Below, piece by piece: positions 40,237 through 49,916 of a DNA stretch of 64,000 bases. This DNA is from Flavobacterium album. Its GTDB lineage: Bacteria; Bacteroidota; Bacteroidia; Flavobacteriales; Flavobacteriaceae. Below the pieces are notes generated by a model, which saw only the letters and a program-made list of their open reading frames with translations, did not search any database and was not told the origin of the DNA. Where the stretch lies: NCBI RefSeq assembly GCF_003096035.1, contig NZ_CP029186.1:757001-821000 (forward strand). Reading direction: 5' to 3'. Position 1 is the first letter of the stretch. Each line of letters starts with the position of its first letter. Both the position numbers and the translations under genes were made by a program.

Positions 40237-42033
40237 ATGAAGCATATAAGGAATTTTTGCATAATTGCACACATTGACCACGGAAAAAGCACCCTTGCCG
40301 ACCGCCTGCTTGATGCCACACAAACGGTTACCGCCCGCGAACAGCAGGCGCAGCTGCTTGACAATATGGACCTGGAGCGCGAGCGCGGCATTACCATAAA
40401 AAGCCACGCCATACAGATGGAGTACACTTACAAGGGCGAGCAGTATATCCTCAACCTTATCGATACTCCCGGGCACGTCGATTTCTCTTACGAGGTTTCC
40501 CGTTCCATAGCCGCATGCGAAGGCGCGCTGCTTATCGTGGATGCCGCACAGAGCATACAGGCACAAACGATATCCAACCTTTACCTGGCACTGGAAAACG
40601 ACCTTGAAATTATTCCTGTACTTAACAAGATAGACCTGCCGAGCGCCAACCCGGAAGAGGTGAGTGATGACATTGTGGACTTGTTAGGCTGCAAGCTGGA
40701 CGACATTATCCCGGCCAGTGGAAAAACCGGCCTCGGCGTAGATAAAATACTTGAAGCGATCATTGAGCGCATCCCTGCCCCTAAAGGCGATCCGGAGGAG
40801 CCATTGCAGGCGCTGATATTCGACTCGGTGTATAACCCGTTCCGTGGGATCGAGGTTATATTCAGGGTAAAGAACGGATCGATAAAAAAAGGCCAGAAGA
40901 TTAAATTCATGGCTACCGGCAATGAATATTTTGCCGATGAGATAGGTACGCTGAAACTGAACCAGGTTCCGAAACAGATCGTGAGCGCGGGGGATGTGGG
41001 CTACCTTATTTCCGGTATTAAGGAAGCAAAAGAAGTAAAAGTTGGGGATACTATTACCGATGCCAAAAACCCAACAACCAATATGGTAAGCGGTTTTGAG
41101 GATGTAAAGCCAATGGTATTCGCGGGTATTTACCCTGTAGATACCGAGGATTATGAAGAACTGCGCAACTCGATGGAGAAATTGCAGCTGAACGATGCCT
41201 CGCTGGTATTTACGGCAGAAAGCTCTGCGGCGCTGGGCTTTGGTTTCCGATGCGGGTTCCTGGGGATGCTTCACATGGAGATTATACAGGAAAGGCTGGA
41301 GCGTGAGTTCAACATGACGGTGATTACTACAGTTCCCAACGTATCGTACCTTGCCTACACCAAAAAAGAACCTGAAAAAGGCATTATAGTAAACAACCCG
41401 AGCGACCTTCCGGAACCGTCCAAACTGGACCATGTGGAGGAACCGTATATAAAAGCGACTATTATTACCAAGTCGGATTTCGTAGGCAACGTAATGAGCC
41501 TGTGTATCGAAAAGCGCGGCCTCATTACCAACCAGACGTACCTGACCACGGAACGTGTAGAGCTGAACTTTGACATGCCGCTGGCAGAAATTGTATTCGA
41601 CTTCTATGACAGGCTGAAGACAGTGTCTAAGGGCTATGCTTCATTTGACTATTCCCCTATCGGGATGCGTACCTCCAGGCTGGTTCGCCTCGACGTACTG
41701 CTGAACGGCCAGGGTGTAGATGCGCTTTCAGCACTGATACACGAAGATAATGCCTATAATATCGGTAAAAAAATGTGCGAGAAGCTGAAGGAACTTATTC
41801 CGCGCCAGCAGTTTGACATACCTATCCAGGCCGCTATCGGCGTAAAGGTAATCTCGCGTGAAACGGTTAAGGCACTCCGTAAAGACGTTACCGCCAAATG
41901 TTACGGCGGGGATATTTCACGTAAGCGTAAGCTCCTCGAAAAGCAAAAGAAAGGTAAGAAACGTATGCGTCAGGTGGGTAATGTAGAGATACCTCAGGAA
42001 GCATTCATGGCGGTATTGAAGCTGAATGATTAA
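40237..42033 (+). CDS. lepA: elongation factor 4 (LepA), translational GTPase
   Basis: EF4 binds ribosomes and affects initiation and back-translocation, mainly under stress. The 598-residue protein has all G motifs: AHIDHGKST (G1), RGITI (G2), DTPGH (G3) and NKIDLP (G4). The LepA C-terminal domain is also present ([33 protein letters not shown]). Length and order are normal. The gene is preceded by a strong promoter and followed by its own terminator. Confidence 0.97.
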
Positions 42034-42064
42034 GATCGATTACGGATATAAATTACGAATTACG

Positions 42065-42095
42065 AACCCGGTGCAGCGATGGCCGGGTTTTTTAT
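42065..42095 (+). terminator. intrinsic terminator of lepA
   Basis: AACCCGG (42065-42071) pairs with CCGGGTT (42083-42089), followed by a T-rich run. Confidence 0.75.
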
Positions 42096-42142
42096 TGATC
42101 AGAAACTGACAATCGAAAATATCCTCAAAGAAGAACGAAAAT

Positions 42143-42210
42143 GTCACATTGAGCGCAGTCAAAATGCGGCATTCCATTATTCTTGCTTCCCGACTGTGCT
42201 CGAAGTGACA
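42143..42210. repeat. dispersed repeat with GAGCGCAGTC / GACTGTGCTC arms
   Basis: An 18-bp imperfect inverted repeat, GTCACATTGAGCGCAGTC and GACTGTGCTCGAAGTGAC, flanks about 30 bp. It shares its core with elements at 17464 and 51692. The rest of the 327-bp gap between lepA and the next gene holds only the terminator and the promoter. Confidence 0.65.
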
Positions 42211-42330
42211 ATCCTGACATAAACCTCATATCGAACTACGTTAAATAAGAGAATTACAACTTTCAAACGATATAATTATTAAACCATAAAGGAATGTTAA
42301 ATTTGGCAAGGTTTATGTTGCAGAAAAATA

Positions 42331-42338
42331 TACATTTG
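42331..42338 (+). promoter_or_regulatory. -7 box of the metal efflux operon
   Basis: TACATTTG lies 22 nt before the GTG start at 42361. No -33 element with normal spacing is seen, which may mean that an activator is used. Confidence 0.5.
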
Positions 42339-42360
42339 CAGTTACGAAACTGAAAACCTT

Positions 42361-42753
42361 GTGAGGATAAACAAAATACATATTCGTCATCGTATTTTAT
42401 GGTTGCTTATGGCACTCCATATCCTCAATTTTAGTATCGATAACCCACATACCCTGAGGGAGAATGATATTGTAGACGAAGATTTCGAAGAGGTGGACAG
42501 TGTGGTAGAGCTTGTATTGGAAGATGTGATCCATATAGAGAACGCTATCCCCGAGCACCATACCAAATCGCCCGTTGGCCACAAATTAAACATTAAGAAA
42601 ACCACATGGACCTGTCCGCAACAGGAAGAAGAACTCGTTTTTGAATCTGTTGCACAGCCTAACTTCAGGGTCGTGCTTCCCGATACATTTTATCAGGATT
42701 CCCCTTATTATTCGCCTTACCTGGCTTTATTTTCCCCTCCGCCCGAGGCTTAA
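42361..42753 (+). CDS. small protein at the head of the metal efflux operon
   Basis: The 130-codon frame starts with GTG (MRINKIHIRHRILW). It has an N-terminal hydrophobic stretch (ILWLLMALHILNF), followed by an acidic region (NDIVDEDFEEVDSVVELVLEDV) and an IENAIPEHH segment. I recall similar proteins ahead of RND efflux genes in other Bacteroidota, but no function is established. Several His and acidic residues could bind metal, which is inference. Its stop codon lies inside the 5' arm of the long inverted repeat that precedes the tolC-like gene. Confidence 0.7.
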   Translation: MRINKIHIRHRILWLLMALHILNFSIDNPHTLRENDIVDEDFEEVDSVVELVLEDVIHIENAIPEHHTKSPVGHKLNIKKTTWTCPQQEEELVFESVAQPNFRVVLPDTFYQDSPYYSPYLALFSPPPEA

Positions 42754-42880
42754 TACTATTTACATTTCTTAATCCGGAACATTGCCTTTATTGGCAGTGT
42801 AATGTTATTCGCGTAGGTTTTACCTATGTTTCCGGCACGGCTTGTATCTGCATACAAACCAGTCTACATAATAGTATTAA
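42750..42880 (+). promoter_or_regulatory. nested RNA fold before the TolC-like gene
   Basis: An 11-bp perfect inverted repeat (TTAATACTATT 42750-42760 / AATAGTATTAA 42870-42880) encloses further paired segments. CCGGAA (42774-42779) pairs with TTCCGG (42830-42835). Inside that lie hairpins 42779-42800 (ACATTGCC / GGCAGTGT) and 42812-42828 (CGTAGGT / ACCTATG). Outside it lies hairpin 42842-42857 (TTGTAT / ATACAA). The outer stem ends 10 nt before the ATG of the TolC-like gene. Such a multibranch leader could be a riboswitch, a protein-binding site or an mRNA processing site that balances expression of the operon. Confidence 0.5.
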
Positions 42881-42890
42881 AATAATCGAC

Positions 42891-44153
42891 ATGACATTAA
42901 AAAAAATAATGTCCTGCATGGCAATAGTGCTATGCTGGGCCAATATGGCTGCACAAAACCCTCAAACGCTCGACCTTACCATAAAAGAGGCAGAAGAGCT
43001 TTTTTTCAAGAACAATTTCTTGCTGCTTGTCGGCCAGTATGGTATTGACAAAGCCGATGCGGCCATAATACAAAGTAAAGTATACCCAAACCCTGAGGTA
43101 AGCGCCGATATGATTGCCTACCAGGGGCAGGACAACCTTTATTTTCCTACCGGTAACAGAGGCAATTTTGCCGCGGGGATAGAACAACTTATCCTGCTTG
43201 GAGGCAAGCGTAAAGCCGGAATAGAATTGGCAAAAAAAGACAAGGAAATGGCTCAGGCCGACCTTGCCGACCTGACCCGCAACCTGCAATACCAGATATG
43301 GCAGTCGTTCTACACCCTGCACAACCAGGAAAAGATCATTAAAAAATATGACCTGCTCCTGCAAAAGCTACAGGAACTCATCAGCAGTTATGAAGTGCAG
43401 GTAAGCAAGAACAATGTGGCCCTTAAAGACCTGGTGCGCTTAAAATCGGTTTATGTAAAGATCAACAACGACAAATCGGAAGAAAGCCAGGTGCTTATTG
43501 AGGAGCAGCAAAAACTGAATGTGCTTCTCGGCACCTCAGCAACAATTAAAACAAGATACGGCACCGATGATGCGAACAGCTTTGCTGCCAAAAATTTTGT
43601 TTATGATGAAATCCTGAACCAGTCGCTGAAAAACAGGGCCGACCTTAACCAGGCAAGGATCGCGACAGAATCGGCAGCGCTTAACCTTAAGCTGCAGCGC
43701 AGCCTCGCTATTCCGGATGTAACGCTTCGCGGGGGCTACAACCAGGCGGGCGATGCTTTCAGGAACCAGTACAATATGGGGCTTGCTATATCACTGCCGT
43801 TCTTCGACCGTAACCAGGGCAATATCCAGAAAGCGAAGACAGGACAGCTGGAAGCGGGGAAAAATGTGAGCTATAAAGAACTTGAAGTTACCAACGAGGT
43901 TCTTGCCGCTTACCAGAACTTTACCCGCAGCGTTGAGGAATACAAACGCATTAACTCGCTTATCAACCAGGATTTTGATGCAGTATTCAACGGCATCAAC
44001 TCCAATTTCCAGAAAGGCAACGTATCCATGATAGAGTTTGCCGACTTCTTTGAAGCATATAACGAAGCGCAGACCGAAGTGGAAAGGGTTAAAAAACAAC
44101 TTGCAATCGCCGCTGCAGGGATAAACTTTGTAACAGGCACTAACAACTTTTAA
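42891..44153 (+). CDS. TolC-family outer membrane efflux protein (CzcC/CusC-like)
   Basis: The 420-residue protein has a signal peptide (cleavage near NMAAQN) and the internal duplication of TolC-type channels. Each half has long coiled-coil helices (AKKDKEMAQADLADLTRNLQYQ..., VEEYKRINSLINQDFDAV) and the strand motif KVYPNPEVSADM. It forms the outer membrane exit of the tripartite metal pump with the adaptor and RND protein encoded next. It lies 3 bp before the adaptor gene, in one operon. Confidence 0.88.
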   Translation: MTLKKIMSCMAIVLCWANMAAQNPQTLDLTIKEAEELFFKNNFLLLVGQYGIDKADAAIIQSKVYPNPEVSADMIAYQGQDNLYFPTGNRGNFAAGIEQLILLGGKRKAGIELAKKDKEMAQADLADLTRNLQYQIWQSFYTLHNQEKIIKKYDLLLQKLQELISSYEVQVSKNNVALKDLVRLKSVYVKINNDKSEESQVLIEEQQKLNVLLGTSATIKTRYGTDDANSFAAKNFVYDEILNQSLKNRADLNQARIATESAALNLKLQRSLAIPDVTLRGGYNQAGDAFRNQYNMGLAISLPFFDRNQGNIQKAKTGQLEAGKNVSYKELEVTNEVLAAYQNFTRSVEEYKRINSLINQDFDAVFNGINSNFQKGNVSMIEFADFFEAYNEAQTEVERVKKQLAIAAAGINFVTGTNNF

Positions 44154-44156
44154 AAA

Positions 44157-45251
44157 ATGAAAACACCGGGCTATATAGTATTAATGGGCGCAGCCATGAT
44201 GGCAATGACGACTGGCTGCTCTAAAAATGAACAGAAACACGAAGAGGCACCACAAAAATTTGTGATGACCGAAACGATGTATAAGGGGAGCACTTTTGCT
44301 ACCGCTGATGAAGAATATGCGCAAAACGAAATACGCCTTTTTGGCAAAGTAAGCGCAGAGAATAACAACGTGAGCCAGGTTTTCCCGGCCGTAGGGGGGA
44401 ATGTGATCGAAATAAAGGCCGAGCTGGGCGACTATGTACAGCAGGGTCAGCTGCTTGCAAGTGTGCGCAGTACCGAGATTGCGGGTTTCCAAAGCCAGGC
44501 CAGCGATGCCGACGCGAATGTGAGCATAGCCGAGCGCAACCTGCAAAGCGCGAAAGACATGTATGAGGGAAAGCTTGCCAGCGAAAAAGAGCTGGTAATG
44601 GCCCAGAAAGAGCTTGACAAAGCAAAGGCCGAGCAACGAAGGATGAAAGAAGTAAACCAGATATACAGGCTGAAAAGCGGGTCGGTTTATAACATGTACG
44701 CGCCTATAAGCGGGTACATTGTAGCCAAGGACATCAGCCCGAACGAGATGCTGAGCAGCAACCGTGAGAGCGCGGTATTTACCATTGCGAAACTTGACCG
44801 CGTATGGGTGTTGGCGAATGTGAACGAGAGCGACCTGGACAAGATAAAAACAGACCAGCAGGTAGACATACATACCATAGCATATCCTGATAAAGACATT
44901 AAGGGTAAAATTGACAAGATATTCAATGTAATCGATCCCGATACAAGGGCGGCAAAAGCCCTGATAAGCGTACCGAATACCGGAGTGGCGCTTAAGCCCG
45001 AAATGAACGCTACCGTTACCGTGCATTTTCCGGACGATAAAAAATTTGTAGCCATACCAAGCGAGGCCGTAGTGTTTGACAAAAGCAAAAACTTCGTGAT
45101 GGTGTTCAACGGGAAGGACAATATTGACACCAGGGAGGTTACGGTATACCGTGCGCTTGATGACAAAACCTACATATCATCGGGCCTGAAGGCGGGTGAA
45201 AAGGTTATCGTGAAGAACAACCTGCTCATCTATGATGCCATTAACGACTAA
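44157..45251 (+). CDS. RND efflux periplasmic adaptor lipoprotein (CzcB/CusB-like)
   Basis: The 364-residue protein has a lipoprotein signal (TTGC, Cys at about 21), a barrel-sandwich/lipoyl half (GGNVIEIKAELGDYVQQGQLLASV), a coiled-coil hairpin (about 115-180) and the second lipoyl half (YAPISGYIVAKDISPNEML). A beta-barrel region follows (VWVLANVNESDLDKIK). It links the inner-membrane RND pump with the TolC-like channel. It starts 3 bp after the channel gene and ends 11 bp before the pump gene. Confidence 0.9.
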   Translation: MKTPGYIVLMGAAMMAMTTGCSKNEQKHEEAPQKFVMTETMYKGSTFATADEEYAQNEIRLFGKVSAENNNVSQVFPAVGGNVIEIKAELGDYVQQGQLLASVRSTEIAGFQSQASDADANVSIAERNLQSAKDMYEGKLASEKELVMAQKELDKAKAEQRRMKEVNQIYRLKSGSVYNMYAPISGYIVAKDISPNEMLSSNRESAVFTIAKLDRVWVLANVNESDLDKIKTDQQVDIHTIAYPDKDIKGKIDKIFNVIDPDTRAAKALISVPNTGVALKPEMNATVTVHFPDDKKFVAIPSEAVVFDKSKNFVMVFNGKDNIDTREVTVYRALDDKTYISSGLKAGEKVIVKNNLLIYDAIND

Positions 45252-45262
45252 TTGCAGCAGCC

Positions 45263-48200
45263 ATGGTAAAAATGATAAGAAACATAATAGGGTTTTCCCT
45301 TCACAATAAGCTATTTACCTTTTTTTGGGTAGCCATTGTGGTGATAGCAGGTGTTATCAGTTATAAAAACATACCGGTTGAAGCATTTCCCGATGTTACC
45401 AATACCCAGATAATCATCGTAACGCAGTGGGAAGGCCGCAGCGCCGAGGAAGTGGAGCGTTTCGTGACATCCCCTATTGAGATCTCGATGAACTCGGTGC
45501 AGAAGAAAACCAATGTTCGCAGCATTACGATGTTCGGGCTTTCGATAATAAAGATCATATTCGATGATGATGTGGATGATTTCTTCGCGCGGCAGCAGGT
45601 GAATAACCAGCTGCGCAACGTAGAACTGCCTGAAGGCATCGAACCCGATGTACAGCCGCCATACGGCCCTACCGGAGAGATATTCCGTTATACATTGCAA
45701 AGCAAGGACAAAAACACCCGTGACCTGCTTACCCTGCAAAACTGGGTAATCGACCGCCAGCTGCGCTCGGTACCCGGTGTAGCCGACGTAGTTGCCTTTG
45801 GTGGCCGCGAAAAGACCTACGAAATAGAGATAGACCCTATATTACTCCAAAAATACGAGCTCACTTCGCCTCAGGTATACGATGCCATCAGTAAGGCTAA
45901 TGTGAATGTGGGTGGAGACGTTATCGAGAAGAACGGCCAGGCTTATGTGGTACGCGGTGTCGGGCTTCTGGAAAGCATCAGTGATATAGAAAATACCATC
46001 GTGGCGCAATACAACGGCAACCCAATCCTAATCAAGAATATTGGCAAGGTGGTAGAAAGCAACGTGCCGCGTGTGGGCCAGGTGGGCCTTGACGACAATG
46101 ACGACGTGGTGGAAGGCATCGTGGTAATGCGTAAGAACGAAAACCCATCGATAGTCCTTGCTGCGCTTAAGGAAAAGATCGCCTATGTGCAGGACAATGT
46201 ACTGCCGAAGGATGTGAAGATGGTTACCTTTTACGACCGCGATAACCTCATGGAATATTGTACCCACACGGTAACACACAACCTTGTGGAAGGTATCGTG
46301 CTCGTTACCCTGATCGTATTCCTCTTTATGGCCGACTGGCGTACCACGGTCATTGTGTCGATCATCATACCACTGGCGCTGCTGTTCGCCTTCCTGTGCC
46401 TCAGGCTCAAGGGCATGAGCGCCAACCTGCTTTCGCTGGGTGCGGTAGACTTTGGTATCATTATAGACGGTGCGGTCGTCATGGTCGAGGGGCTCTTTGT
46501 CGCACTCGACCAGCTGCAGCACAACGTGGGCGAAAAGCGCTTCAACAAGCTGGCCAAGCTGGGGCTTATCCGCAAGACAGGTTCCAAGCTGGGTGTGGCC
46601 ATCTTCTTCAGTAAGCTGATCATCATCTCTGCCCTCCTCCCTATTTTCTCTTTTGAAAAAGTGGAAGGCAAAATGTTCTCTCCCCTTGCGTGGACGCTTG
46701 GTTTTGCATTGCTTGGCGCGCTTATTTTTACCCTTACGCTCGTGCCGGTATTGTGCTCGATCCTCTTAAACAAAAACGTAAAGGAAAAGCACAATGTATT
46801 CGTCCGGTTTTTCGACAAATCGGTTTCCAAAGGGCTTAGCTTTACCTTCAGGCATAAAAAAATATCGTTCATTGTATCACTGGTGATCTTAGGGCTTACA
46901 CTGGTGTCCGCCAAGTTCATGGGGACCGAATTCCTGCCACCGCTGAATGAGGGCGCGCTGTGGGTGGAGGCAAAATTCCCTATGAGCCAGTCTCTTACCG
47001 AAACCGTAGACCGCGTGGCCGAGCTGCGCAAGGTGCTGCGTACCTTCCCCGAAGTGAATGGCGTGCTTTCGCAAACGGGCCGAAGCAACGACGGTACCGA
47101 CCCAAGCGGCTTCTATTATGTTCAGATGCAGGTGAACCTGAAGCCTAAGGAAGAATGGAAGCGCAAGATCACTATGGACGGCCTCGTGGAGGAAATGGAC
47201 AAAAAGCTGGAGAACTTCCAGGGGATCAACTTCAACTATTCGCAGCCGATCATTGACAACGTGGCCGAAGCCGTGGCGGGTATGAATGCCAGCAACGCCG
47301 TGAAGATCTACGGGGACGACCTGAAAACGCTCGACAAGCTGGCCAACGAGGTCATTGCCCGGATGAAGAATGTAGACGGTGTTAAGGATATCGGTATCCT
47401 GCGCAATGTGGGGCAGCCCGAGATAAGCATCCGTTTTGATGAAGAAAAAATGGCGCTCTACGGCGTGCAGAAAAGCGATGCCCAAAGCATTATTGAAATG
47501 GCGATAGGCGGTAAGACCGCAACACAGAAATACGAAGGCGAGAAAAAATTCGATGTGAGGCTGCGTTACCGCAAGGATTACCGTAAGGACGAAGAAGACA
47601 TCATGAACCTTATGGTACCTACGCTGCGCGGTACCAAAGTGCCGCTCAAGGAGATCGCATCGCTGAATACCGCTACCGGGCCGGCCTTTATTTACCGTGA
47701 CAATACCAAAAGGTTCATCGGGGTGAAATTCTCGGTGCGCGACCGCGACCTTGGTAGCACCATTGCCGATGCGCAGGCCCGCGTAAAAGGCCTGAAGCTA
47801 CCCGAAGGCTACACCATTGGCTGGACAGGTGAGTTCGAGAACCAGATACGCGCCAGCGCCAAACTCGCCCAGGTGGTGCCGGTATCGTTAGTGCTGATCT
47901 TCGTGCTGCTGTTCATCATGTTCGGTAATATAAAAGACTCGCTGCTGGTGCTTGTCAATGTCCCTTTTGCCATCATTGGGGGTATACTGGCCCTGCAGCT
48001 CACGGGCATCAACTTCGGTATTTCGGCGGGTGTGGGCTTCATCGCTCTGCTGGGTATCTGTATCCAGAACGGCGTGATACTCGTCTCGGAGTTCCACTCC
48101 AACCTGCGAAAGAAAATGAGCCTGGCTTCCTCGATCATCGAGGGCGTTAAGTCGCGTACCCGCCCCGTGGTAATGACCGCGCTGATGGCCGCCATAGGCC

Positions 48201-48367
48201 TGATGCCGGCCGCGATATCTACCGGTATCGGTTCCGAATCGCAGAAACCACTGGCCGTTGCTATCATCGGCGGACTGGTTACAGCAACGCTCTTTACGCT
48301 GCTTATATTCCCCAATTTCTTTTACTGGGCAATGAAAAGCAAGCATGAGAAGGATGAGCAGATTTAG
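45263..48367 (+). CDS. heavy-metal RND efflux pump, CzcA-like
   Basis: The 1034-residue inner-membrane protein is expected to have 12 helices with two large periplasmic loops, and it exports divalent metals by proton antiport. The helix-4 signature is DFGIIIDGAVVMVEG (near residue 396), with the two Asp typical of the Co/Zn/Ni group (CzcA-like) rather than the monovalent Cu/Ag CusA type. VEAFPDVTNTQI near the N-terminus and RTRPVVMTALMAAIGLMPAA near the C-terminus are conserved in the family. The exact metal cannot be told. It is the last gene of the operon and is followed by a terminator. Confidence 0.93.
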   Translation: MVKMIRNIIGFSLHNKLFTFFWVAIVVIAGVISYKNIPVEAFPDVTNTQIIIVTQWEGRSAEEVERFVTSPIEISMNSVQKKTNVRSITMFGLSIIKIIFDDDVDDFFARQQVNNQLRNVELPEGIEPDVQPPYGPTGEIFRYTLQSKDKNTRDLLTLQNWVIDRQLRSVPGVADVVAFGGREKTYEIEIDPILLQKYELTSPQVYDAISKANVNVGGDVIEKNGQAYVVRGVGLLESISDIENTIVAQYNGNPILIKNIGKVVESNVPRVGQVGLDDNDDVVEGIVVMRKNENPSIVLAALKEKIAYVQDNVLPKDVKMVTFYDRDNLMEYCTHTVTHNLVEGIVLVTLIVFLFMADWRTTVIVSIIIPLALLFAFLCLRLKGMSANLLSLGAVDFGIIIDGAVVMVEGLFVALDQLQHNVGEKRFNKLAKLGLIRKTGSKLGVAIFFSKLIIISALLPIFSFEKVEGKMFSPLAWTLGFALLGALIFTLTLVPVLCSILLNKNVKEKHNVFVRFFDKSVSKGLSFTFRHKKISFIVSLVILGLTLVSAKFMGTEFLPPLNEGALWVEAKFPMSQSLTETVDRVAELRKVLRTFPEVNGVLSQTGRSNDGTDPSGFYYVQMQVNLKPKEEWKRKITMDGLVEEMDKKLENFQGINFNYSQPIIDNVAEAVAGMNASNAVKIYGDDLKTLDKLANEVIARMKNVDGVKDIGILRNVGQPEISIRFDEEKMALYGVQKSDAQSIIEMAIGGKTATQKYEGEKKFDVRLRYRKDYRKDEEDIMNLMVPTLRGTKVPLKEIASLNTATGPAFIYRDNTKRFIGVKFSVRDRDLGSTIADAQARVKGLKLPEGYTIGWTGEFENQIRASAKLAQVVPVSLVLIFVLLFIMFGNIKDSLLVLVNVPFAIIGGILALQLTGINFGISAGVGFIALLGICIQNGVILVSEFHSNLRKKMSLASSIIEGVKSRTRPVVMTALMAAIGLMPAAISTGIGSESQKPLAVAIIGGLVTATLFTLLIFPNFFYWAMKSKHEKDEQI

Positions 48368-48426: not shown

Positions 48427-48487
48427 TGAATATGATAGTCACACATTCTACAATAAGATTCTTTTTTTAACATTTAAACTAATTGCT

Positions 48488-48495
48488 TATCTTTG
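48488..48495 (+). promoter_or_regulatory. -7 box of the fusion gene
   Basis: TATCTTTG lies 20 nt before ATG 48516. It overlaps the extended upstream frame, which supports the later start. Confidence 0.55.
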
Positions 48496-48515
48496 TGTTT
48501 ATTAGTATTAAAAAC

Positions 48516-49916
48516 ATGAATTTAATAGAGAAAACGGTTGCCGATTTGATGAAAAAATTTGGAGAAGGCAACCATAAGCCAGGATCTGGTAGTGCAGCAG
48601 CATTTCAAGGTATGGTTTCTGCAAAACTTATCTCTACAGTAATCAGTTTAACAACTGAAGAAAAAAGGAGAAAACAATACGGGAACATCTTTACTGAAAT
48701 ATTGGATTTCCAAGAGCAAATTGAAAATCGGATTTACCCAAGTCTGACAAGATTGTTTCAAATAGATTCGGAGCAGTTTGATAAAACTATAATTTTAAGA
48801 ACTGAACGCGATAATGAAGAGGATGAAATTAAAAAAAATCAGTTGAGACTTGAGGCACTAGAACAACTTAAAACTTCTATAGATATACCTTTAGAAATTG
48901 GACTTCTTTGTAAAGAATTAGCAGAAATCGCAGCATATATTTTTGATTATGGTTTCAAAGCTGCAAGAGGAGATTCTCAGGTAGGTTTAAGTGGAGCAGT
49001 TTCTGCTATAAGCGGATGCATATCAATAATTAGACTTAATGTACTATCATATAGTAGTGATGAATATCAATATACTAAATCTGTAGTAGCGAAGGTAGAC
49101 AGTCTTGATAAAGTTTATCAAGAGCTAAGCATCGTTGTAAACGCAAGAATTAGAGTACTACAAGATGAATATGATGCTAAAGTTCCCTTATTTGAAGGTA
49201 TTAATGAGATTATTAAGAAATATAGAGCAGATAAAAAGCTAAAAATAGAAAATTGCGCCCGGGATTTGCAGAATCTCATTTGGGCTAACAAAAACTTAAT
49301 TTGGAAGAAAAACACTCCTAATGATGTTTTAGAAATCTTACGCCCTGATATAATTTTCAGACAAGTTTTAGGATATGGATATATAGAAAATGGCAGATAT
49401 GCTGTCGCTTATGAAGATGGCGGAGATGTTGAGGTTGCAGGAGTTATTGATCAGCCTAATAAATTGGTTGCAGTTTCAAACAATTACTCAGATGAGGTTA
49501 GAAGGTTTACGGCAGCACATGAATTAGGTCATGCAATACTCCATAGTCAGCCCATTTTGCATAGAGATATTCCGTGTGACTCAATTGGTATTCGGAAAAG
49601 CCGTGATTATACTGAAGTAGAGGCTGATAAATTTGCCACCTATTTTCTTATGCCTGAAAGAATAATATTACGAGAGTTTCATAGAATTTATTCCGTACCG
49701 CAATTTCAACTCAATGAAGACTTAGCCTTTAAATTTGGTGGGCGTAGTACTATTGATTTAAGGCGGGAATGTAAGGATAGAAGAGGACTATCTAGAAAGT
49801 TAGCTTCTGCGGAGTTATACAATGACAATTATTTTACATCACTCTCGAAACTGTTTGGTGTTTCAATTGAGGCTATGGCAATTCGTCTTGAAGAACTGAA
49901 TCTTGTATTGTATTAG
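48516..49916 (+). CDS. cyclodeaminase-like domain fused to ImmA/IrrE metallopeptidase domain
   Basis: The 466-residue protein starts at ATG 48516 (MNLIEKTVADLMKKFGEG). Residues about 1-200 resemble the formiminotransferase-cyclodeaminase C-terminal (FTCD_C) helical domain: KPGSGSAAAFQGMVSAKLISTVISLTTEEK, then long helices with DIPLEIGLLCKELAEIA and QVGLSGAVSAISGC. Residues about 300-400 are an ImmA/IrrE peptidase domain with zinc site HELGH (335-339) and EVEADKFATYFLMPE (second Glu near 369). A helical segment (about 200-290) joins them. ImmA/IrrE proteins cleave phage or stress repressors or act as toxin-antitoxin partners. FTCD_C-like proteins bind folate or unknown ligands. The gene is visibly AT-rich and stands alone between the efflux operon and a pseudogene, consistent with transfer. 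The function of the combination is unknown. Confidence 0.8.
   Translation: MNLIEKTVADLMKKFGEGNHKPGSGSAAAFQGMVSAKLISTVISLTTEEKRRKQYGNIFTEILDFQEQIENRIYPSLTRLFQIDSEQFDKTIILRTERDNEEDEIKKNQLRLEALEQLKTSIDIPLEIGLLCKELAEIAAYIFDYGFKAARGDSQVGLSGAVSAISGCISIIRLNVLSYSSDEYQYTKSVVAKVDSLDKVYQELSIVVNARIRVLQDEYDAKVPLFEGINEIIKKYRADKKLKIENCARDLQNLIWANKNLIWKKNTPNDVLEILRPDIIFRQVLGYGYIENGRYAVAYEDGGDVEVAGVIDQPNKLVAVSNNYSDEVRRFTAAHELGHAILHSQPILHRDIPCDSIGIRKSRDYTEVEADKFATYFLMPERIILREFHRIYSVPQFQLNEDLAFKFGGRSTIDLRRECKDRRGLSRKLASAELYNDNYFTSLSKLFGVSIEAMAIRLEELNLVLY

Follow-up and report, generated by a model that had tools for sequence, protein, structure and literature searches.

The RNA fold in front of a czcC-like metal-efflux gene of Flavobacterium album is real and conserved; it is an RNA lock tied to a polyproline leader peptide. 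We consider it probable (roughly 65%) that this fold acts as the output half of a switch controlled by a nascent leader peptide and resembling those of SecM and CutF, in which a ribosome paused at a Pro-Pro-Pro (PPP) motif near the end of the leader opens the outer stem of the fold, P0, and permits translation of the downstream gene.

The fold lies in a 64,000-nucleotide stretch of the F. album genome, analysed as a whole and referred to herein as the window; further loci are numbered with the prefix L. In the window, a 130-aa ORF is followed by a 137-nt spacer and by genes for a CzcC-type outer membrane efflux protein (OEP), a CzcB-type adaptor and a CzcA-type pump (Table 1). The product of the 130-aa ORF matched no Pfam or NCBIfam family in a profile search, and among 13 OEP starts scanned in the same genome, the one preceded by such a leader is that of the window. 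A sigma-70 scan of positions 42000–43000 returned no site on the + strand. On the 5' side of the leader, positions 42302–42338 carry TTTGGCAAGGTTTATGTT and a -7-like TACATTTG, and several leaders of the same czcC type are preceded by a similar TTTGGCA-G-TTT-TGTT string with a TA-nn-TTTG box; TAnnTTTG occurs 63 times in the window versus 60 by chance, and is therefore not enriched. Beyond the pump gene, at 48483–49916, one ORF fuses a formiminotransferase-cyclodeaminase-like domain (PF04961) with an IrrE-type metallopeptidase domain (PF06114).

Table 1. Positions of the leader, the spacer helices and the efflux genes within the window.
Feature	Position	Strand	Basis
Leader ORF, 130 aa, GTG start as listed, C-terminus FSPPPEA-stop	42361..42753	+	
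Hydrophobic N-terminal segment, putative membrane segment, residues 14–26, LWLLMALHILNFSI region	42400..42438	+	hydropathy
PPP codons CCT CCG CCC, proposed pause site	42736..42744	+	
Outer stem P0, 5' arm, includes stop codon TAA 42751–42753	42750..42760	+	
P1 5' arm CCGGA	42774..42778	+	
Hairpin P2, arms 42779–42786 / 42793–42800	42779..42800	+	
Hairpin P3, arms 42811–42818 / 42822–42829	42811..42829	+	
P1 3' arm TCCGG	42831..42835	+	
Hairpin P4, arms 42839–42847 / 42852–42860	42839..42860	+	
Outer stem P0, 3' arm, end 10 nt 5' of czcC-like AUG	42870..42880	+	
CzcC-like outer membrane efflux protein, candidate regulated gene	42891..44153	+	PF02321
CzcB-like adaptor, same operon as czcC-like gene	44157..45251	+	
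CzcA/CusA-family heavy-metal RND pump	45263..48367	+	TIGR00914 above cut-off

A preliminary description of this locus had reported a perfect 11-bp outer inverted repeat that encloses a 6-bp stem and three hairpins, with the stop codon of the preceding small gene in its 5' arm. Each of these features was found: the outer repeat forms P0, the inner stem is a repeat at 42774–42779 / 42830–42835, the three hairpins lie within the element, and the TAA of the 130-aa ORF sits in the 5' arm (Table 1). The minimum free energy (MFE) of positions 42740–42890 (151 nt) is -41.9 kcal/mol, a value equalled by 0/200 dinucleotide shuffles (z = -4.58), in line with the original suspicion that such nesting is unlikely by chance. 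The concern that the palindromes might be dispersed repeats was allayed, as the element is single copy in its own 3.98-Mb genome (3,983,546 bases), where a DNA search at E ≤ 10 gave 13 matches, one of full length and the other 12 of 14–26 nt. Some DNA match to the element at E ≤ 1 was present in 171 of 199 genomes, and among the matches listed outside its own genome there were short pieces only, of up to about 50 nt. A dispersed repeat or mobile element is ruled out by the single copy, and full-length DNA relatives were not found. Rfam, applied at gathering scores to the whole window, returned tRNA only, and the fold matches no family.

In eight loci (the window, L088–L093 and L160), a czcC homolog follows a homolog of the small ORF, and these loci constitute the czcC-type set. 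The topology P0[P1[P2,P3]P4] is contained within the MFE fold of all eight, exactly in six and with one helix split in L089 and L091. An earlier shuffle control scored the exact topology only; repeated with split helices merged, it gave the topology in 8/8 loci versus 1–4/200 dinucleotide shuffles of each. The arms of P1 read CCGGA/TCCGG in the window, GTACCAA/TTGGTAC in L089, CAATAC/GTATTG in L090 and TGTACC/GGTACA in L091, and P0 is swapped from ATACTAT/ATAGTAT in the window to ATAGTAT/ATACTAT in L160. Conservation in orthologous operons, which had been proposed as a check on the fold, was thus borne out, with the nested fold kept and the helix sequences differing yet complementary; across these comparisons P0 and the P1–P4 topology persist despite changing letters. 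The deviant member of the set is L088, in which the outer helix is another one, of 7 bp, and which failed the strict stem test described below. In this locus, from a MAG, the CzcA gene is found in two ORFs (468 + 563 aa), and the locus may therefore contain sequence errors. RNAalifold on seven czcC-type loci yielded 12 P0 pairs, of which 4 show a two-sided change, each in a single sequence; we do not lean on this result, because L088 and an alignment shift in the window contribute to it. In an alignment of seven loci, the only invariant columns between the P0 arms are isolated ones. The leader was also sought upstream of more distant CzcC homologs (L041–L067) and rejected there, as the upstream ORF in these 27 loci encodes a 434–454-aa protein; named from its sequence rather than by a profile, this protein reads as a histidine kinase.

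The 130-aa leader belongs to an unnamed Bacteroidota family whose members end in PPP-[E/K/Q]-x-stop. A profile of 15 small-ORF proteins, PPP included, found 351 relatives at E ≤ 0.01; among the 120 listed, PPP is near the C-terminus in 120/120 and exactly two codons before the stop in 111. Since this full profile itself contained PPP, the search was repeated with an N-terminal profile that excluded it. That profile found 657 relatives, and PPP lies within the last 15 residues in 116 of the 120 listed, the others being 2 with QPP and 2 fragments. The distance from a conserved N-terminal Asn to PPP is 99–103 residues in 175/188 proteins, the remaining 13 being without the Asn pattern or PPP. The residue preceding PPP is S in 80, T in 26 and I in 9 of 120 relatives; PPP is kept, and the residues immediately upstream are variable. 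Across 72 loci (71 named and the window), the PPP codons are written as 32 different 9-mers, one of which codes for QPP, indicating that the amino acids are conserved and not the RNA letters, and the gap from PPP to the stop is two codons in 65/72. In sequence, PPP is thus near-invariant and lies at a near-constant distance from the N-terminus. Judged by hydropathy only, a 17-residue N-terminal stretch reaches a Kyte-Doolittle value of 1.5 in 66/120 relatives, the lowest value being 0.88. Histidines 20, 30 and 67 of the window leader, read from the proteins alone, are present in 24/24 close relatives (with the PHT motif), and the AIPE[HN]H motif around His67 in 0 of the other 164 proteins. In the czcC-type leaders, His20, His30 and His67 are candidate ligands.

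Leaders were collected in two sets. The main set comprises 72 loci from a GTDB contig scan, ranging from Flavobacteriaceae to Cytophagales, of which 71 have a readable spacer, and L153, with no next ORF, was dropped; the hold-out set stems from a class-wide search, which located leaders in 28/295 genomes (own included) and 22/155 genera. The PPP leader module precedes unrelated gene families, namely HAEPLYID, OEP/CzcC, RND adaptor or pump, SulP and ABC. The HAEPL string occurs in the next ORF of 60/71 main and 10/28 hold-out loci, and the next gene of L206 is a further NF041634 match. OEP genes come next in L194, L196, L202, L207 and L214, RND adaptors in L094, L204 and L205, an RND pump in L199, a SulP gene in L208 and an ABC transporter in L212. 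In L095, L098, L110, L191, L195, L197, L200, L209, L210 and L213 the next gene was named by resemblance only; those of L209 and L210 are SulP-type permeases on this basis, while that of L208 was assigned by profile. An AlphaFold2 model of HAEPLYID is strand-rich (mean pLDDT 69.9), with a predicted strand content as in a beta-barrel. A search by sequence found no PDB relative of HAEPLYID, and a search of the open-access literature other than preprints found no paper on this family, which is named in NCBIfam (NF041634). In L133, L105, L139, L120 and other HAEPLYID loci, the gene is apparently alone 3' of the leader. The HAEPLYID gene of L156 is apparently frameshifted and the leader of L147 has an in-frame stop codon; the spacer stem is still there in each.

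To score P0 across the main loci, the strict stem test took the best stem that the bases following PPP can form with the final 30 ahead of the AUG and compared it with 100 shuffles. Start codons had been reassigned by hand in L095, L121, L127, L129, L158, L156, L186 and L191, and L110 (QPP, 276-nt spacer) was left out of the foreign-arm, arm-position and duplex tests and of the 9-mer references. No more than 5/100 shuffles reached the score in 55/72 loci, the window among them. The commonest form of the stem is TGATTTGTTTT...AAAACAAATCA, and a TGA stop pairs mostly with TCA, a TAA stop with TTA. With foreign 5' arms the mean stem score was 12.0 versus 23.0 with the own arm, and the own arm exceeded the foreign mean in 68/71 loci (exceptions L095, L097 and L098). 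On 60 loci aligned with MAFFT, RNAalifold predicted zero pairs, and this alignment was replaced by one of 26 better-aligning HAEPLYID-type loci. As these loci were picked for better alignment and the structure was derived from the same alignment in which it was counted, the counts describe the best-conserved subset: 93.2% of cells pair versus 41–60% when slid, and 24 cells have two-sided changes versus 9.1 in shuffles, mostly in the inner hairpin. In this alignment, P0 shows a two-sided change in only 1/11 pairs and contains 12 G-U/U-G versus 1 A-C cells, as expected of sense-strand RNA. HAEPLYID-class loci keep P0 with a single inner hairpin. Searched against 48 sources, a covariance model of the 26 loci produced 40 matches at E ≤ 1, of which 32 lie at the expected spacer, another 7 at that place on the opposite strand and 1 elsewhere; it misses the window's own element and L088–L093.

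The position of the stop codon invites a plainer explanation, namely that P0 is opened by any ribosome that completes the small gene and passes on to czcC, with PPP a feature of a functional small membrane protein and no regulated arrest. In the window the stop lies in the 5' arm, and with PPP two codons from the stop in 65/72 loci, either event, termination or a PPP pause, would suffice to open P0. Informative cases come from seven named loci with three to eight codons after PPP. In L116, L118, L144, L146 and L154 the arm starts 9–21 nt before the stop and 0–7 nt after PPP; in L154 the stem arm is coding sequence, and the arms of hold-out L203 and L212 likewise begin at PPP+0. In L097, L131 and L160 the arm is near the shifted stop, and these loci do not discriminate between PPP and stop. 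The stem thus keeps to PPP in 5/7 late-stop loci, which favours a PPP-paused over a terminating ribosome, and the conservation of PPP, but not of the residues just before it, also speaks against simple coupling, which we regard as unlikely. The idea that translation of the preceding gene opens the outer stem is sound in itself, except that the stem is mostly locked to PPP where the stop lies apart from it. The translational-coupling switch first proposed is accordingly upheld in a more specific form, in which the small gene encodes a conserved polyproline leader that has the outer stem as its output. The spacers of L127, L129, L121 and L186 have an in-frame ATG 5' of the likely start, within the stem region, and an alternative start inside the lock is therefore possible.

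Hold-out leaders carry PPP in 27/29 cases and PP in 2. The strict stem test was passed by 8/28 hold-out loci, L201 (no next ORF in the locus) being omitted from the stem counts. In several hold-out operons the 3' arm overlaps the AUG, as in L213 (TTTCTTCAT/ATGAAGAAA). A duplex test, with the search interval widened over the AUG, bulges allowed and p ≤ 0.05, was positive in 46/72 main loci (70 named loci, the window and L160) and in 12/28 hold-out loci, where it was not blind since the widening was chosen after viewing folds of the same loci. Controls with the 5' interval moved 90 or 180 nt upstream were positive in 1–4/72 main and 1–2/28 hold-out loci. L189, L190 and L191 of the hold-out set share sequence with main-set loci; without them the counts are 6/25 for the strict test, 10/25 for the duplex test and 24/26 for PPP. 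PPP is close to universal in the family, and a recognisable stem is not.

In the switch that we propose, translation would begin with the leader, whose hydrophobic N-terminus probably engages the membrane, and the ribosome would slow or arrest on reaching Pro-Pro-Pro, five codons before the end. By toeprint geometry, a ribosome whose P and A sites are occupied by PPP extends about 10–13 nt beyond this motif. The paused ribosome would cover roughly half of the P0 5' arm, the first part, which would pair nearest the AUG. With P0 blocked, the region just 5' of the czcC-like AUG would be single-stranded and the efflux operon would be translated; once the ribosome clears PPP and departs, P0 would close and initiation would be blocked. 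The compact P1–P4 domain would bring the P0 arms together and aid closure, and in some other operons the 3' arm would mask the AUG itself. Arrest, this direction of control, and periplasmic metal or export state as the signal are what we infer from the arrangement, and EF-P may remove the PPP pause. According to the accessible text of a study of F. johnsoniae, start regions there avoid base pairing between about -20 and +20 and are without Shine-Dalgarno sequences (PMC6847099), so P0 should hinder initiation.

Leader-controlled transcription termination in the spacer, either Rho-dependent as in CruR or intrinsic, with P0–P4 part of the decision, seems very unlikely to us. CruR, a leader with a C-terminal RAPP, is described in the available text as acting via Rho (PMC9426467), and a 137-nt spacer in which P2 fits a terminator-like pattern would be compatible with such a route; however, terminator-like sites number 1 observed versus 0.9 expected in shuffles, and the 3' arm of P0 lies at the start region, over the AUG in some operons, which is not required for termination. 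An mRNA processing site, also suggested at first, is not supported at this locus. Least credible is the metal-responsive riboswitch of the preliminary description, in which P1–P4 would bind a metal ion or metabolite and control P0 independently of the leader peptide, because although 8/8 czcC-type loci retain a nested multi-helix domain, which sits ahead of a metal efflux operon, the shape of this domain is kept without its internal sequence, such that no conserved ligand pocket is visible, conserved ligand-binding nucleotides were not found among the isolated invariant columns, Rfam gives no match, and the HAEPLYID-class loci keep P0 with a single inner hairpin.

Comparison with published leaders places the PPP family near several of them. 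As described in the accessible part of its report (PMC9973294), CutF of Rhodobacter capsulatus is an exported small leader 5' of a metal-homeostasis gene, with a C-terminal proline-rich motif, a stem shielding the initiation region of the next gene and a need for the leader in opening it; CutF-like proteins are reported there in Bacteroidota and upstream of OEP genes, and no stall was detectable at the CutF proline motif. CutF differs in having DUF2946 and a CxxxC copper site (PMC9973294), whereas the PPP leaders have no DUF2946 match or conserved Cys motif, carry PPP two codons from the end and are followed by a multi-helix spacer. At E ≤ 1, neither the window leader nor any of 15 relatives matched DUF2946, Cys is absent from residues 41–85 in 99/120 relatives, and the 15-sequence alignment contains no conserved Cys (CXXC or CxxxC site); PPP does conform to the C-terminal proline motif of DUF2946-type leaders. 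CruR of Bordetella pertussis, in the available text of its report, is a metal-sensing leader with a C-terminal proline motif and a conserved distance between this motif and the sensor, but differs in its CXXC and RAPP motifs, DUF2946, Rho-dependent termination and lowered expression with copper (PMC9426467). SecM is an exported leader in which arrest near the C-terminus keeps an intergenic stem over the next initiation site open, but it has another arrest sequence, a secretion-signal input and control of secA with a Shine-Dalgarno site, as far as the accessible text goes (PMC7897499). A stem of the CutF/SecM type over the next initiation region is predicted for the window and many relatives, but not all. 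Among the leaders covered in the available text of PMC10987492, uA_LPPP leaders stall B. subtilis ribosomes at PPP, and those ending in NSP-stop or NAP-stop indicate that arrest peptides occur in Bacteroidota; the LPPP leaders are from Planctomycetota, and LPPP, NSP and NAP leaders all precede sec genes, whereas the PPP leaders have S/T before PPP and efflux, SulP, ABC or HAEPLYID genes downstream. The RAPP/RGPP leaders are small exported uORFs with C-terminal proline motifs before metal-related genes, but are defined by RAPP/RGPP, and their Cu-related class is reported, in the accessible text, as not found in Bacteroidota (PMC12992588); RAPP and RGPP are absent from our family, in which PPP is preceded mostly by S or T instead. 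The best reading of this comparison is that the PPP leader would work like SecM and CutF; it is not a DUF2946 member. The preliminary description had held that the element was undescribed in Bacteroidota. This stands for the exact family, as no paper describing it was found in the accessible text of the open-access literature other than preprints, but not for its kind, given that CutF, CruR, SecM and uA_LPPP are published, and the family may already sit among the CutF-like proteins listed for PMC9973294.

We give about even odds to the broader proposal that these leaders constitute an undescribed, phylum-wide Bacteroidota family of polyproline regulatory nascent peptides, a portable cassette of sensor plus RNA lock placed before metal efflux, RND, SulP, ABC and HAEPLYID genes. 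In it, the envelope would be read by a nascent chain whose length is fixed (for czcC-type leaders, the input would be periplasmic metal), and pausing at PPP would open a stem that covers a start site independent of Shine-Dalgarno pairing. If true, control by arrest peptides would extend to efflux genes in a phylum without Shine-Dalgarno initiation, where the stem would act via the bare accessibility of the start region. It would also provide czcCBA-like and RND pumps with a sensor that can be tested, account for a family whose members are at present annotated as hypothetical proteins, and offer a first handle on the HAEPLYID family.
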